Positions 13,993-39,206 of a stretch of 49,851 bases of DNA are shown piece by piece. The translations under genes were made by a program, and so were the position numbers. This stretch comes from Prochlorococcus sp. AG-315-C08 (GTDB lineage Bacteria; Cyanobacteriota; Cyanobacteriia; PCC-6307; Cyanobiaceae), in assembly GCA_003284185.1 (NCBI GenBank), contig QBWB01000003.1:1-49851 (forward strand). Direction: 5' to 3'. Numbering within the stretch: the first letter of the stretch is position 1; every line of letters starts with the position of its first letter. The notes below the pieces were generated by a model that saw nothing but the letters and a program-made list of their open reading frames with translations, was not told the origin of the DNA and did not search any database.

Positions 13993-14852
13993 TTAATAAG
14001 CTCTCTTTCTATGTAGGCTGGCATAGCGCTGAATGCTCCTTTTTGCCATCGCGGGCTCCATATTTGGCAATTTTTGGAGATTTCAATTATACGACTTTCA
14101 AGAGGATACAAGTAATTTGCTTCTTTCATAGATGCAAATGTCCAACTCCACCATCCACTGGGATATATGGGTACTGATCCATATAAAGGATCTGCAAAGT
14201 CAAAGATTTGGCGTAGTGAATTGACAATATTGATGTGAGCTTCGTGAAATGCCTCAGGGGACTCACTTTGCGTTGCGAAAATGCCACCAGGCTTAAGTAT
14301 TCGTTTGCAGTTGTTGAGAAAACTATGACTAAATAATTCTTTTGCGGGTCCAACAGGATCTGCACCATCAACAATAATTACATCATAAGAGTCATTTTTT
14401 GTAGTTTTCACCCAATCAATTCCATTTTTAATTTTGATATTTAATCTTGAGTCCGTCCACCCATCTCCAAGAATTGAAGTTAAATATTTTTTACTAAGTT
14501 CAATAACCTTTGAGTCTATTTCTATTAAATCTATAGATTTAACTTCTTCATATTTAAGACATTCTCTAGCACTACCGCCATCACCTCCACCAATAATTAA
14601 AATATTATCTATTATTTTTGAACCACATAATGCAGGATGAATAAGAGATTCATGATAATGCTTCTCTTGCTTTTCTGCTGTCATCCAGCAATTATCAAGT
14701 AATAATGCTCTACCATATTTAATGCTTTCAAATATTGTGATTGTTTGAAAATTGCTTTCCTCTTGCCTTAGAACTTTTCCTTCTAGACCATATCTAGCTC
14801 CTTGATGATACTCATCAAACCATTCAATTGTGTCTTTTAATTTATTATTCAT
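13989..14852 (-). CDS. speE: Spermidine synthase (polyamine aminopropyltransferase)
   Basis: 287 residues. The decarboxylated-SAM binding motif IIGGGDGGSARECLKY is at about 87-102, with VDGADPVGPAKELF near 160 holding the conserved aspartates. The N-terminal beta domain starts IEWFDEYHQGARYGLEGKVL. It transfers an aminopropyl group to putrescine. It lies 12 bases after mazG and overlaps speB. As in many cyanobacteria the source of the aminopropyl donor (speD) is not in the window. Confidence 0.93.
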   Translation of the reverse strand: MNNKLKDTIEWFDEYHQGARYGLEGKVLRQEESNFQTITIFESIKYGRALLLDNCWMTAEKQEKHYHESLIHPALCGSKIIDNILIIGGGDGGSARECLKYEEVKSIDLIEIDSKVIELSKKYLTSILGDGWTDSRLNIKIKNGIDWVKTTKNDSYDVIIVDGADPVGPAKELFSHSFLNNCKRILKPGGIFATQSESPEAFHEAHINIVNSLRQIFDFADPLYGSVPIYPSGWWSWTFASMKEANYLYPLESRIIEISKNCQIWSPRWQKGAFSAMPAYIERELIK

Positions 14853-20440: not shown

Positions 20441-22537
<2,097 letters not shown>

Positions 22538-24858: not shown

Positions 24859-26834
24859 TTGTGTGATGATTGGGATTTTTTATGTTCATGACTTTCAGTT
24901 CTTTTCATGTTGTCTATTTTTAACCAAATTAGAAGTGCAGTGAGATCAGCTTTGCTTACTCCTGGAACTTGGGCAGCATGACCAAGGCTGACTGGTTGAG
25001 AGATAGATAATTTTTCTCTTGCTTCTTGAGAAAGAGTTTTTATTTTGTTGTAATTTAAGTCTCTTGGTAGTAACTTTTTACTTTGTTTTTTGAATTGATT
25101 TATTTGAGCTTCTTGTCTTTCTAAATAACCACTATATTTAATATCTATTTCTACTCCTTCTTGAACATCTAAAGGCATATTTCTATCCATTAAATCATAA
25201 CTAATTAGATCTTTACAATGAATATTTGTTCGTCTTAAAAAGTTAGCTAAAGTTAAGGAACCTTTGATAGGTATGCCAGTAGAGATCTTTATTAATTCAG
25301 CGATATTATCACTATCTTTTATACGCTCTTTATTCATTCTTGATTTTTCTATTTCTATAGATTCTTTTTTGGCACTATATATCTTCCATCTTCTTTCATC
25401 AATTAGTCCTAGCTGGTGAGCCAGTGGAGTTAGTCTTCTGTCTGCATTATCACTTCTAAGTACTAATCGATATTCACTTCGGCTTGTTAATACTCTATAA
25501 GGTTCTTTTAAGTCTTTTGAAACTAGGTCATCAATCATAGTCCCTATGTAACTACTTTCACGACCAAAGATAACTTCGTTTTGATTTTTTACTAATCTTG
25601 CAGCATTTAAACCTGCTACTAAGCCTTGTGCAGCGGCTTCTTCGTATCCTGTTGTTCCATTAAGTTGTCCAGCACTAAACAACCCAGTAATTTTTTTTGT
25701 TTCTAATGATGGTAGGAGTTGAGTAGCCGGAAGATAGTCATATTCAACTGCATAGGCTGGTCTCAGCATTACGCATTGCTCTAATCCTGGAAGGGTTCTC
25801 AAAAGTTCCAATTGTAAGTTTTCAGGCAACCCAGTGGAAAAACCTTGCACATAAATTTCTGGAGTATCTCTTCCTTCAGGTTCTAGAAAAATTTGGTGCG
25901 AATCTTTGTTAGCGAACCGAACGATTTTATCTTCGATTGAAGGGCAATATCTTGGCCCTTTGCTATCTATGAAACCACCATAAATAGGAGTTAAATGAAG
26001 ATTCTTTTTGATAAGTTCGTGAGTTTCTTTTGTTGTACGAGTGATATGGCAACTCATCTGCTCGCCACTTTTCCATGAAGCAGGGTCAAAGGAAAAAAAT
26101 CGGTCTGAAGCGTCACTAATTTGTTCATCAAGAGAACCAAAATCAATACTTCGTCTGTCCACTCTTGCAGGTGTTCCTGTTTTTAACCGATCAGTGGTAA
26201 AACCTAATTTTTGTAATTCTTCTGTTAAGCCTTCAGATGCCTGTTCTCCTGCTCGACCAGCGCTCATAGATTGATTGCCAATCCAAATCCTTCCTCCCAA
26301 AAAGGTACCAGTTGTAAGTACGACTGCTTTAGCAGAAAAAATACTTCCAAAATAAGTTTTAATTCCCTTTATTTTACCAATTCTTTCTGTTCCTTCAGGC
26401 TTAAAACGAATGTCTTTTTTAGAAAAAGTTTCTATTTCTAGGCCTGTAACCATAGCCTCTCGAATCTTAAGATTCGGCGTTTCTCGAAGTGCTTTAAGCA
26501 TCTCATTGGCATATAAGCGTTTATCTGTTTGTGCTCTTAAAGCTCTTACAGCTGGTCCCCTACTTGAGTTAAGTACTCTTTTCTGAAGAGCTGTTGAATC
26601 TGCTAATTTTCCTATTATTCCTCCTAATGCATCAACTTCATGGACTAGCTGGCTTTTTGCAGGTCCTCCTATAGCAGGATTACATGGTTGCCATGCAATC
26701 CTATCAAGATTGAGTGTAAATAAAGCGGTATTTAAACCCAATCTGGCTGATGTTAATGCAGCTTCACAGCCGGCATGACCACCGCCAACAACAATTACAT
26801 CAAATATTTCATTTATGGAATTTTTATTCATCAT
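24855..26834 (-). CDS. mnmG: tRNA uridine-5-carboxymethylaminomethyl modification enzyme
   Basis: About 659 residues (two adjacent ATGs at 26834 and 26831). The FAD-binding motif [15 protein letters not shown] is near 15, the GidA signatures [25 protein letters not shown] and [11 protein letters not shown] are present (the first is cut here to its key part [11 protein letters not shown]), and the C-terminal helical domain ([23 protein letters not shown]) binds MnmE. MnmG with MnmE modifies the wobble uridine of several tRNAs. It lies 38 bases downstream of dnaB. Confidence 0.96.
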
Positions 26835-28850: not shown

Positions 28851-29792
28851 TTACGATGCGATAGGTAATCGAATCTTTTTAGCTAGTCCAAGGGCGTTTA
28901 AAAAACGTATATGCTGCCAAGTTAGGTCAATTTGGTTTTTATGGAGCCCATGCTTTGCAGAACTTGGGAATGCATGGTGATTATTGTGCCATCCTTCCCC
29001 AAATGTTAGAGCTGCTACCCATTTATTATTTTTGGAATTATCTCCACTGTCATAAGCAATAGTTCCCCAACAATGAGTAGCAGAATTAACGAGCCAGGTT
29101 ATGTGATAAACAAAAACAAGACGAAGAGGAATGCCCCACAGGACTAGGGCCCATCCTCCTGCCCCAGTTGCTGTACCAATCCAAAAAAGAAAAGCTCCTA
29201 ATGGTAGTTGAAGAAGTAAAAAATATTTATTTAAAAAGCGATAGTAAGGATCTTTGTTTAAATCACCTGCAAGCCTATTAACAGCTTTCATTGCGGCCAC
29301 ATCTTCAAACATCCATCCCATATGACTCCACCAAAATCCTTTATTACTGTCATGGTGATCAGCCTCGGTATCAGAAAAAGTATGGTGATGTCTATGTAGC
29401 CCAACCCAGTCAATTGGTCCATGTTGGCAACTTATTGCTCCACAAGTGGCAAAAAATCTTTCTAGCCACTTAGGCACTTGAAACGAGCGGTGAGATAAAA
29501 GGCGATGATATCCAGTTGTTACTCCTAGACATGCAGTAAGCCAATAAAGGATCAGAAATGCAGAGAATGCCTGCCAGCTCCAAAATTTAGCTTGTAATGC
29601 AAAAATGGTTAGAGAATGTATTCCTCCCATAAAAAGTACCGTCCCCCATCTTTTGCGTGCTTTCTTGATGTTGTGTCGAGTTGATATTCGAGTCGATAAA
29701 GGTTCCTGAAGCTTTCTTGAAGCCTCCATTGCTTTGTCACCAGAGACTGGTTTTGAAAATGGAGCCGAAGCCTCGATCACACTGGAAACCAT
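28851..29792 (-). CDS. desC: Acyl-lipid delta-9 fatty acid desaturase
   Basis: 313 residues with the three histidine boxes of membrane desaturases: HRLLSH (about 96-101), HRHHH (about 133-137) and HNNHH in GEGWHNNHHAFPSSAKHG near the C-terminus. Two pairs of hydrophobic helices separate them. It introduces the first double bond into membrane lipid acyl chains, which controls fluidity at low temperature. A 16-nt palindrome lies 34 bases upstream of its ATG, next to a divergent putative HTH gene, and may regulate it. Confidence 0.92.
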   Translation of the reverse strand: MVSSVIEASAPFSKPVSGDKAMEASRKLQEPLSTRISTRHNIKKARKRWGTVLFMGGIHSLTIFALQAKFWSWQAFSAFLILYWLTACLGVTTGYHRLLSHRSFQVPKWLERFFATCGAISCQHGPIDWVGLHRHHHTFSDTEADHHDSNKGFWWSHMGWMFEDVAAMKAVNRLAGDLNKDPYYRFLNKYFLLLQLPLGAFLFWIGTATGAGGWALVLWGIPLRLVFVYHITWLVNSATHCWGTIAYDSGDNSKNNKWVAALTFGEGWHNNHHAFPSSAKHGLHKNQIDLTWQHIRFLNALGLAKKIRLPIAS

Positions 29793-29807
29793 TAGTGATG
29801 CGTCTAG

Positions 29808-29841
29808 TTATCGTATATGATAGACGATAAGGATCCTTATC
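29808..29841. promoter_or_regulatory. Candidate operator: overlapping palindromes
   Basis: GATAAGGATCCTTATC (29826-29841) is a perfect 16-nt palindrome. It overlaps the right arm of a second inverted repeat, TTATCGT (29808-29814) with ACGATAA (29824-29830). It lies midway in the 79-base gap between the divergent starts of desC (29792) and the putative HTH gene (29872). Size, symmetry and position fit a dimeric regulator site; which protein binds it is unknown. Confidence 0.5.
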
Positions 29842-29871
29842 AGGTCTTTTTGTTGATTCTGTACGTGATTT

Positions 29872-30606
29872 GTGAAGTCTGGTTTCCGCGATGAATTAAT
29901 AGCTGGTCGAAGAGCGATGGCGCACTTGATTCATGTTTGGCATGAGCGAAATGCTTGGTCTCACAAGGTGCTTCCTGCGTTAGCTGAATCTCTTGATTTA
30001 GGTAGAGTACATAGTTCTCAGATTTCTAATTTACGAAATGGAAAGCTTGTATCTCCTAGTCCAGAAGTTTTTTTTGCTTTGGGCAAAGTCAATAAAGCTT
30101 TATCTCTCGGCCTAGAAAAGATAAAAAATCATTTGTCGATAGTTAATCCTGAACTGCTTAAAATTCTTGTTGATTCTGCTATACCAGTTGAGGGGAATGA
30201 AGGAAATCCACTTTCAGCGGGTGATTTTTTTGAGATTTTTGTTGGTTTAGCTTCTTTGCCGTCATCCTTTGATTGGTTTATTGAGGATAATGAGGCTTCT
30301 TTTTTAAGTGCATCTCTCGCGGATTATCTTTGCAAAGGTAAGTCTTGGCGGATTTGTGGTGAGCAAGTAATGGCTGCTTATCCAGTTAGTAAAAAACAAC
30401 GAAGAGAGAGATTTGCAGAAGTTATGGCAGGCTTAAGAGATTACACAGCAGAGGAACTGGACGGTGAATTATTAGATTTACATGCTACTAACAGGACCTT
30501 AAATGCTATTGAAGGACAAGGAGCAGATGATTTTCTAGATAATCTTCGCCAAAGGGGATTATTATTAAAAGATCAAGAAAAATTAGAAATTATTTTTTCT
30601 GATTGA
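29872..30606 (+). CDS. Putative HTH-domain protein, unknown function
   Basis: 244 residues from a GTG at 29872. Residues about 29-75 (WSHKVLPALAESLDLGRVHS, then SQISNLRNGKLVSPSPEVFF) look like a Cro/CI-type helix-turn-helix, with the recognition helix around SSQISNLRNG. The rest is helical, ends in a region with many charged residues, and has no known enzymatic motif. It is the first gene of a plus-strand set with the PLP protein, gcvH and gcvP, and it starts 31 bases after the palindrome. DNA binding is inferred from pattern only. Confidence 0.6.
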   Translation: MKSGFRDELIAGRRAMAHLIHVWHERNAWSHKVLPALAESLDLGRVHSSQISNLRNGKLVSPSPEVFFALGKVNKALSLGLEKIKNHLSIVNPELLKILVDSAIPVEGNEGNPLSAGDFFEIFVGLASLPSSFDWFIEDNEASFLSASLADYLCKGKSWRICGEQVMAAYPVSKKQRRERFAEVMAGLRDYTAEELDGELLDLHATNRTLNAIEGQGADDFLDNLRQRGLLLKDQEKLEIIFSD

Positions 30607-30624
30607 TAATAATTATCTCTATTT

Positions 30625-31923
30625 ATGGGAAATAAAATAAATCAACATATGTCAGACGAATTTGCTAAGAAGTTTATTCAATCTATAGAAGAAAAAATAT
30701 ATACCTCAATTAGATATCATACTGATAATGTAACTTTTAAATTAGAAAAAGTACTAAAAGCATTTTCTCAATCCCGTTTAAATGTGCAGCATTTTGCCTC
30801 GTTGACTGGATATGGTCATGGAGATTTAGGAAGAGAAGTTATTGATGAAATCTTTGCCAATATTTTCAATACAGAGAAAGCAGCAGTCAGACTGCAGTTC
30901 GTAAGCGGAACTCATGCTATTACTTCAGCATTATTTGGAGTCTTAAGACCCGGAGATAACTTTTTTTCTGTAACTGGAAAGCCTTATGAGACTTTGGAGG
31001 AAGTGATTGGTTTGAGAGGAAATGGACAGGGGTCACTTATTGAATTTGGAGTTTCATATGATGATATATCTTTTGAAAAAGATGGAAATGTTGATTTTTT
31101 GGCTTTAGAGAAGGCTTTGGAGATTCCAAGGAAACTAATTTTCATTCAAAGAAGTTGTGGCTATACATGGCGACCATCTTTAACAATTGATGTTATTAAA
31201 AGAATTTGCGATTTATGTCATAAAAAACAGCCTAATTGTATTTGTTTTGTTGATAACTGTTATGGAGAATTTGTTGAAGATACAGAACCAACTGATGTAG
31301 GTGCTGACTTAATTGCAGGATCATTGATTAAAAATTTAGGTGGAACAATTGTTCCAACAGGTGGATACGTTGCTGGTAAAGCAGATTTAGTTGGTAAAGC
31401 ATGTTGTCGTTTAACTGCTCCTGGTATTGGGTCAGAAGGTGGTATCACTTTTGATTTGAATAGGATTATTTTGCAAGGCCTTTTTTTAGCTCCTCAGATG
31501 GTTGCAGAGTCTTTAATTGGAGCCGAACTTATTGCAGCTACTTTTAGTGAGCTTGGTTTTAATGTCTCACCATCCGCAGGTTCTTTACGAGGAGATTTGA
31601 TTCAAGTTGTCAGGATTGGTGATCCAAAAGCATTAAAAATAATTTGTAGGTCCTTTCAAGAAAAATCACCCGTTGGATCTTATCTTGATCCAATTCCTGC
31701 TTCTATGCCTGGGTATGAAAATAATTTAGTCATGGCAGGTGGAACTTTTATTGATGGCAGTACTAGTGAGTTATCTGCAGATGCTCCTATGAAACCTCCA
31801 TTTGATCTTTTTATACAAGGAGGTTCACATCGATCACATGTCAAAATTGCTTTAATTCATGCATTATCTAATTTATTTCGGGCAGGATTCATCAAACTGT
31901 CTCACAATAGTGAAGCGTTTTAG
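30625..31923 (+). CDS. Methionine gamma-lyase-like PLP protein (aluminium-resistance family)
   Basis: 432 residues of the PF06838-type fold-type I PLP family, often annotated as aluminium resistance protein or YnbB. Visible features are FVSGTHAITSALFGVLRPGD near 93, the cofactor aspartate in FVDNCYGEF (D210) and the PLP lysine at about 236 in GSLIKNLGGTIVPTGGY. The biochemical substrate of this family is not established; carbon-sulfur lyase activity is suggested by fold only. The ATG at 30625 is 18 bases after the HTH gene, and gcvH starts 11 bases after its stop, so the four genes likely form one operon. Confidence 0.8.
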   Translation: MGNKINQHMSDEFAKKFIQSIEEKIYTSIRYHTDNVTFKLEKVLKAFSQSRLNVQHFASLTGYGHGDLGREVIDEIFANIFNTEKAAVRLQFVSGTHAITSALFGVLRPGDNFFSVTGKPYETLEEVIGLRGNGQGSLIEFGVSYDDISFEKDGNVDFLALEKALEIPRKLIFIQRSCGYTWRPSLTIDVIKRICDLCHKKQPNCICFVDNCYGEFVEDTEPTDVGADLIAGSLIKNLGGTIVPTGGYVAGKADLVGKACCRLTAPGIGSEGGITFDLNRIILQGLFLAPQMVAESLIGAELIAATFSELGFNVSPSAGSLRGDLIQVVRIGDPKALKIICRSFQEKSPVGSYLDPIPASMPGYENNLVMAGGTFIDGSTSELSADAPMKPPFDLFIQGGSHRSHVKIALIHALSNLFRAGFIKLSHNSEAF

Positions 31924-39173: not shown

Positions 39174-39206
39174 AGTTAAAAATATTTTTAATAAAAGATG
39201 TATGTT

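Follow-up and report, generated by a model that had tools for sequence, protein, structure and literature searches.

A conserved candidate operator between desC and a divergent gene for an XRE-like protein in Prochlorococcus and its picocyanobacterial relatives

The 79-nt gap between desC and the divergent gene

The window, meaning the whole stretch of 49,851 nucleotides that was analysed, belongs to a Prochlorococcus assembly of 0.96 Mb that is 52% complete and that also served for the own-genome scans; judging from its relatives, the genome appears to belong to the low-light NATL-like clade. A gap of 79 nt, reaching from the start of desC at 29792 (minus) to a GTG start at 29872 (plus), separates two divergent genes and contains the palindrome studied here. 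The features of the locus are as follows:

28851 to 29792, minus strand: desC, a delta-9 acyl-lipid desaturase of 313 aa (Pfam FA_desaturase, E 7e-21), presumed to be of the DesC4 type
29808 to 29830, no strand assigned: outer imperfect inverted repeat
29810, minus strand: predicted start of desC transcription, 18 bp away from that of the HTH gene
29816 to 29821, plus strand: -10 box predicted for the HTH gene, TATGAT (most sister genomes have TATAAT), inferred from the sequence
29817 to 29822, minus strand: predicted -10 box of desC, TATCAT, offset by one base from the plus-strand box
29826 to 29841, no strand assigned: putative operator, the 16-nt palindrome GATAAGGATCCTTATC (family consensus GATAnGGATCCnTATC), conserved in the family and of low diversity in the genus
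29828, plus strand: predicted start of HTH-gene transcription, 7 nt from its -10 box
29853 to 29871, plus strand: second conserved pattern, TTGATYTT-N-TGATTT, in the 5' leader of the HTH gene, right before its GTG
29872 to 30606, plus strand: gene of the XRE-like helix-turn-helix (HTH) regulator, 244 aa, found only in the picocyanobacterial family
29968 to 30036, plus strand: predicted helix-turn-helix, residues 33-55, with the strongly conserved HxSQ[IL]S[NM]LRN, based on low-confidence models
30625 to 31923, plus strand: Met_gamma_lyase-family gene, 18 nt downstream of the HTH gene, followed by gcvH and gcvP; neighbours

The original prediction had described a perfect 16-nt palindrome that overlaps a second inverted repeat and lies between two divergent starts, and this description holds in all three respects: GATAAGGATCCTTATC is perfectly symmetric, it is overlapped by the outer repeat, whose arms (29808-29818 and 29820-29830) are 11 nt long and 91% complementary, and it is flanked by the two starts given above. 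The outer repeat as such is not retained in relatives, which keep only its -10 block. Perfect palindromes of at least 16 nt occur six times in the window, whereas 60 dinucleotide shuffles gave 1.45 on average and never more than 5, and because they are not rare there, symmetry alone does not single out GATAAGGATCCTTATC. The others, of 16-18 nt, lie at 14525-14542, 21829-21844, 26461-26476, 31341-31356 and 39176-39191. When the gap itself was shuffled, a perfect palindrome of at least 16 nt arose in 21 of 20,000 cases. In the own-genome scan, GATAAGGATCCTTATC was the sole match at 0 or 1 mismatch; with up to 3 mismatches allowed there were 14 sites, and the reversed control had 11. The evidence that counts for the palindrome is its conservation rather than its symmetry.

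Conservation of the element and geometry of the predicted promoters

Gap sequences were collected from the contigs of relatives and from family genomes, and after removal of the window's own copies and of duplicates 93 distinct sequences remained, 78 of the non-high-light type and 15 of the high-light/HNLC type. In the 78 non-high-light gaps, the best 16-mer differed from GATAnGGATCCnTATC by 0, 1, 2, 3, 4 and 5 mismatches in 12, 40, 17, 3, 3 and 3 cases, so that 69 gaps contain a 16-mer within 2 mismatches and nine deviate by 3 to 5. Of these 69 16-mers, 64 are located 30-34 nt before the regulator start; the other five, from Cyanobium-like genomes, are found at or near a regulator start that is extrapolated there. 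The high-light/HNLC gaps differ from GATAnGGATCCnTATC by 3 mismatches in one case and by 4 in the other 14, and their element reads GATATGnAATATTATC or GATATGAAATAATATC, mostly GATATGnAATATTATC, while the recognition segment of the protein is unchanged. Within the genus of the window, 25 of 35 distinct gaps read GATAAGGATCCTAATC and only 3 contain a perfect palindrome. Footprinting of the gap in relatives has therefore borne out the conservation of the element, whereas the perfect symmetry is absent from most of the genus.

An information profile of 41 sequences, from which the 15 high-light/HNLC gaps, the four divergent gaps L096, L102, L106 and L115 and three near-duplicates were omitted and in which the window's genus was cut to five, peaks on the element, with positions 3, 9 and 14 invariant. 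Among 32 sister gaps of the same geometry, the element has a pairwise diversity of 0.030 and the -10 block one of 0.023, compared to 0.158 and 0.135 for the remaining gap and 0.287 and 0.289 for the third codon positions of the two genes. Within the genus, variation in the element is thus roughly one fifth of that in the remaining gap and roughly one tenth of that at third codon positions.

The base preferences of the columns are symmetric, and the two halves vary independently among 36 distinct 16-mers. Compensatory change between the half-sites (GATAAG..CTTATC versus GATACG..CGTATC) was considered and rejected, with permutation P values of 0.22-0.66 for the four varying pairs; in the remaining four, variation is slight or an excess is absent. 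Halves without covariation fit two protein subunits rather than an RNA stem. This bears on the proposal that the element is an RNA hairpin, or plain core-promoter sequence, where the HTH transcript begins, which we regard as very improbable: GATAAG-GATC-CTTATC could form a 6-bp stem at the 5' end of this transcript, but pair 5-12 is complementary in only 9 of the 36 16-mers, with A-A as the commonest combination, the centre (A8, T9) is conserved as much as the arms, and two lineages that have no HTH gene and keep desC4 have lost the element in whole or in half. The mirror-image site is most likely an operator conserved across the picocyanobacterial family.

The predicted -10 box, present on both strands, ends four bases before the element. 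In the 78 non-high-light gaps, the desC strand carries TAnnnT in 63 and the HTH strand in 53, with both strands doing so in 53, and the two-strand form is commonest at this offset among all offsets from -40 to +59. Outside the genus the respective numbers are 28, 18 and 18 of 43, and in the 41-sequence profile the box columns have A at -8 in 39 and T at -4 in 33 sequences. Since the two-strand box adjoins the site, the latter would lie in the spacer of the desC promoter and over the predicted HTH start, the predicted operator spanning about -16 to -31 of desC and about -2 to +14 of the HTH gene. A consensus -35/-10 promoter scan of the gap found no pair. The distance of 18 bp is the commonest start spacing in bidirectional promoters of E. 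coli (PMC12825309). We therefore read the gap in the window as a putative bidirectional promoter with a -10 box shared by both strands. The conserved operator appears to overlap both promoters, as far as predicted starts allow and with the high-light group diverged.

Two further patterns were noticed in the gap. In the high-light/HNLC sequences (L030-L039, L041, L093, L109-L111), candidate -10 boxes TATACTAT are seen by eye on the HTH side of the element and not on the desC side, and the promoter may be rearranged around the operator in this group. The second leader pattern also occurs in relatives, and its TGAT-like repeats are 12 nt apart in 19 of 35 sequences.

The geometry is also what an activator might use. 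The HTH protein could activate desC, or act both ways, for example by bending the DNA between -35 and -10, and repress only itself, a reading that we hold to be unlikely. Proteins of the XRE type at such sites are usually repressors, the regulator has no MerR-like match, and the site covers the predicted HTH start as well. The location of the site in the desC promoter spacer beside the -10 box would nevertheless suit activation, as would the failure to find a consensus -35/-10 promoter in the gap, and activators of the MerR type bind between the hexamers (PMC12825309).

The putative regulator, its desaturase neighbour and their natural losses

Homologues of the regulator are found in 221 of 250 sampled family genomes and, in a sample of the phylum, in 29 of 291 genomes, all 29 of which are picocyanobacterial. 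Its N-terminal part, including HxSQ[IL]S[NM]LRN, is strongly conserved. Among the curated models, the window protein matched no HTH model and no MerR-like, TetR or receiver domain, and PHROGs and NCBIfam gave no match to the regulator. Among 36 relatives, HTH profiles matched weakly, with HTH_3 in 7 (best E 0.014) and HTH_31 in 4. A paralogue of 227 aa, which aligns to the regulator family over 189 columns (98.7%), reaches Pfam HTH_31 with E 8.7e-6 and 26.4 bits, just under the cut-off of 27. Two structure models of low confidence (pLDDT 60 and 63) place helices at residues 33-40 and 48-55; Foldseek returned nothing at E ≤ 0.001 with either of them, and a sequence search of solved structures gave none or weak L29 matches only. 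The structure matches listed are a mixture, with many XRE chains (HipB, SinR, C.AhdI and the 434 and P22 c2 repressors) at Z 3-4 among others that are unrelated; the best row is a POU domain with Z 5.5. Matches at Z 3-4 may reflect a mere common helical arrangement. The putative helix-turn-helix of the original prediction is supported by the paralogue with its HTH_31 match and, weakly, by the folds, and we take the divergent protein to be an XRE-like regulator with a C-terminal part of unassigned kind.

Freshwater-type genomes (L204-L208, L210 and similar) contain up to 9 regulator matches including the orthologue, the others being 22-32% identical. One class of these paralogues has, by eye, its own palindrome TTAGC-N5-GCTAA just upstream of the start at six loci, which suggests that self-operators may be a recurrent feature in the wider family. 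On an HNLC1 scaffold (L041, 3001-3718) the HTH gene is apparently frameshifted after residue ~107 with the element intact, which would be either a sequencing error or a recent loss.

The desaturases of the family fall into two types, the window type with at least 62% identity to the desC of the window and a second type with at most 59%. The former flanks the operator; the latter, where present, is convergent beyond the HTH gene. A divergent desC of the window type was found at 137 of 138 HTH-bearing loci, a set that includes several loci from one genome, and the remaining one (L043) is cut by a contig end. The regulator is thus divergent from, and linked to, its putative target across lineages. 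According to the gene coordinates in a published table (PMC2593844), G201 fits strain CC9605 with one gene, of the second type, and G219 fits CC9902 with both. DesC3 is described as core and DesC4 as absent from warm thermotypes (PMC9124967; PMC7393227), which is why the window type is presumed to be DesC4, the desaturase associated with cold thermotypes in the same sources. Low temperature strongly alters the expression of desC4 in WH7803, and other stresses alter it too (PMC7393227); in MIT9301 desaturases including desC are reported as raised in the cold (PMC10294614). In WH5701, desC4 goes up with high salinity and other desaturases go up in the cold (PMC12834511).

In genus g5, 17 of 19 genomes have no DesC4-type desC; 16 of these are also without a regulator match, some of these absences being only absence from the match list, and G231 has a weak match (E 3.8e-4). 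In G103 and G219, desC4 is kept and the regulator is gone, and the gap contains no operator (best 16-mer with 5 mismatches, elsewhere in the gap). In G058, which also has desC4 without the regulator, only the half GATAAGGAT is left and the other half is degraded. Five less complete genomes (G046, G029, G164, G079, G178), with both genes absent or a contig end, were left out of the loss count. The operator hence decays where the regulator is lost and desC4 kept, in two lineages, one of them with a half-site left; since there are only two, this is suggestive and not proof. Family-wide conservation and this decay together support the operator candidate that had been proposed between desC and the divergent HTH gene.

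Reach of the site and the gcv neighbours

When 121 family genomes were scanned for GATAnGGATCCnTATC with at most 1 mismatch, 34 of them yielded 42 sites in total, 29 in the desC-HTH gap, 11 elsewhere and 2 unplaced. The 87 genomes without a match are explained by operators that diverged further or were not found. The reversed control yielded 6 sites in the same scan against the 11 outside the gap, a comparison to be read with care, as the control includes CTAG, a tetramer that other factors may make rare. Seven of these 11 were checked, and all of them lie inside long stop-to-stop open frames. A widespread motif is accordingly not supported, and nothing points clearly to a second target in the 121 genomes at up to 1 mismatch. 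Upstream of the DesC3-type desaturase, no match within 2 mismatches was found at 24 loci; site-based regulation of this type was rejected, matches being found in the desC4-HTH gap or inside desC4 only.

These counts also weigh on the idea that the site serves as operator for a different regulator with a wider reach, the HTH gene being a mere neighbour. We consider this quite improbable, since more sites would be expected and those checked outside the gap lie in open frames, and since loss of the HTH gene is accompanied by operator decay. Known motifs do not fit either: there is no HLR1-like direct repeat in 29793-29871 at up to 3 mismatches, and by eye the half-site spacing is unlike the Fur, Zur and NtcA boxes, GATAA-N6-TTATC deviating from the spacing of Fur/Zur and the GTA-N7-TAC of sister genomes from the GTA-N8-TAC of NtcA. 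In favour of a wider regulator are the excess of outside sites over the reversed control, the presumptive nature of binding by the HTH protein, and the changed element of high-light Prochlorococcus beside an unchanged recognition segment. The last point is unexplained by the reading of the protein as a repressor. The palindrome is probably the only operator of the XRE-like protein.

The original prediction had also extended control to gcvHP. No terminator-like site was found in the 18-nt gap between the HTH gene and the Met_gamma_lyase-family gene in the window, and read-through from the HTH gene into the gcv genes is possible in the window's own lineage. In lineages with a second desaturase (e.g. 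L075, L079), this convergent gene is located between the HTH gene and the Met-gamma-lyase/gcv genes, which directly follow the HTH gene where the second desaturase is missing, as in the window, and for this reason the adjacency in the window is secondary and control of gcv is not an ancestral trait. As a conserved or ancestral trait, gcvHP control is thus unsupported.

Proposed control of DesC4 and its place among known systems

The best reading, which we consider probable, is that the protein is a local repressor dedicated to desC4 and its own gene, with binding, repression and signal as the presumed parts of this model. The XRE-like protein would bind as a dimer to the palindrome, which lies immediately upstream of the desC -10 box and covers the point where transcription of the HTH gene is predicted to begin. 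Because the site adjoins this box and covers the HTH start, the bound dimer would block RNA polymerase in both directions at the bidirectional promoter, and both the DesC4-type desaturase and the regulator itself would be repressed. Release of the repressor, and with it a rise in unsaturation, would follow from a signal connected with cold, salt or membrane saturation; given the salt response of desC4 in WH5701 described above, this signal is not necessarily cold. The site, its conservation, the fixed promoter geometry as it appears in the sequence, the close linkage and the decay in two lineages are the observed part of this model.

Divergent local autoregulators are an already known kind. 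DesT and FabR, two bacterial regulators of desaturases, are of the TetR type, and the window protein has no TetR match. The predicted N-terminal helical HTH is shared with XRE/HTH_31 regulators, such as the freshwater-type paralogues, SinR, HipB and C.AhdI, but the window protein matches no curated HTH model and has a long C-terminal part for which no known relative was found. In the acrR/acrAB system of E. coli, the regulator is likewise divergent from its target, with a two-strand -10 box and a predicted start spacing of 18 bp, and is thought to repress both genes (PMC12825309), as is proposed here; AcrR, however, is of the TetR type and controls efflux, whereas here an XRE-like protein would act on a desaturase. 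DesK-DesR of Bacillus subtilis and Hik33-Rre26 of Synechocystis also provide local or cold-linked control that includes lipid unsaturation (PMC3264485). They differ in protein family, Hik33 acts on many genes, and the window protein has no receiver domain match. In the accessible text of the open-licence literature, no description of the regulator family, of its operator or of a link to DesC4 was found, which agrees with the earlier view of a local, undescribed regulator.

A more far-reaching proposal, which we put forward as speculative and rather unlikely, is that this one-site regulator family, restricted to picocyanobacteria, itself senses temperature or the acyl state of the membrane and sets DesC4 accordingly, so that loss of the regulator-operator-desC4 module, or of regulator and operator alone, would mark lineages with a changed thermal niche. 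Prochlorococcus is considered to possess few regulators, and its range is limited by temperature (PMC10294614). No dedicated regulator was found in the accessible open-licence literature. A regulator-operator pair that has one site and has been lost naturally in some lineages opens the control of membrane unsaturation to direct tests.
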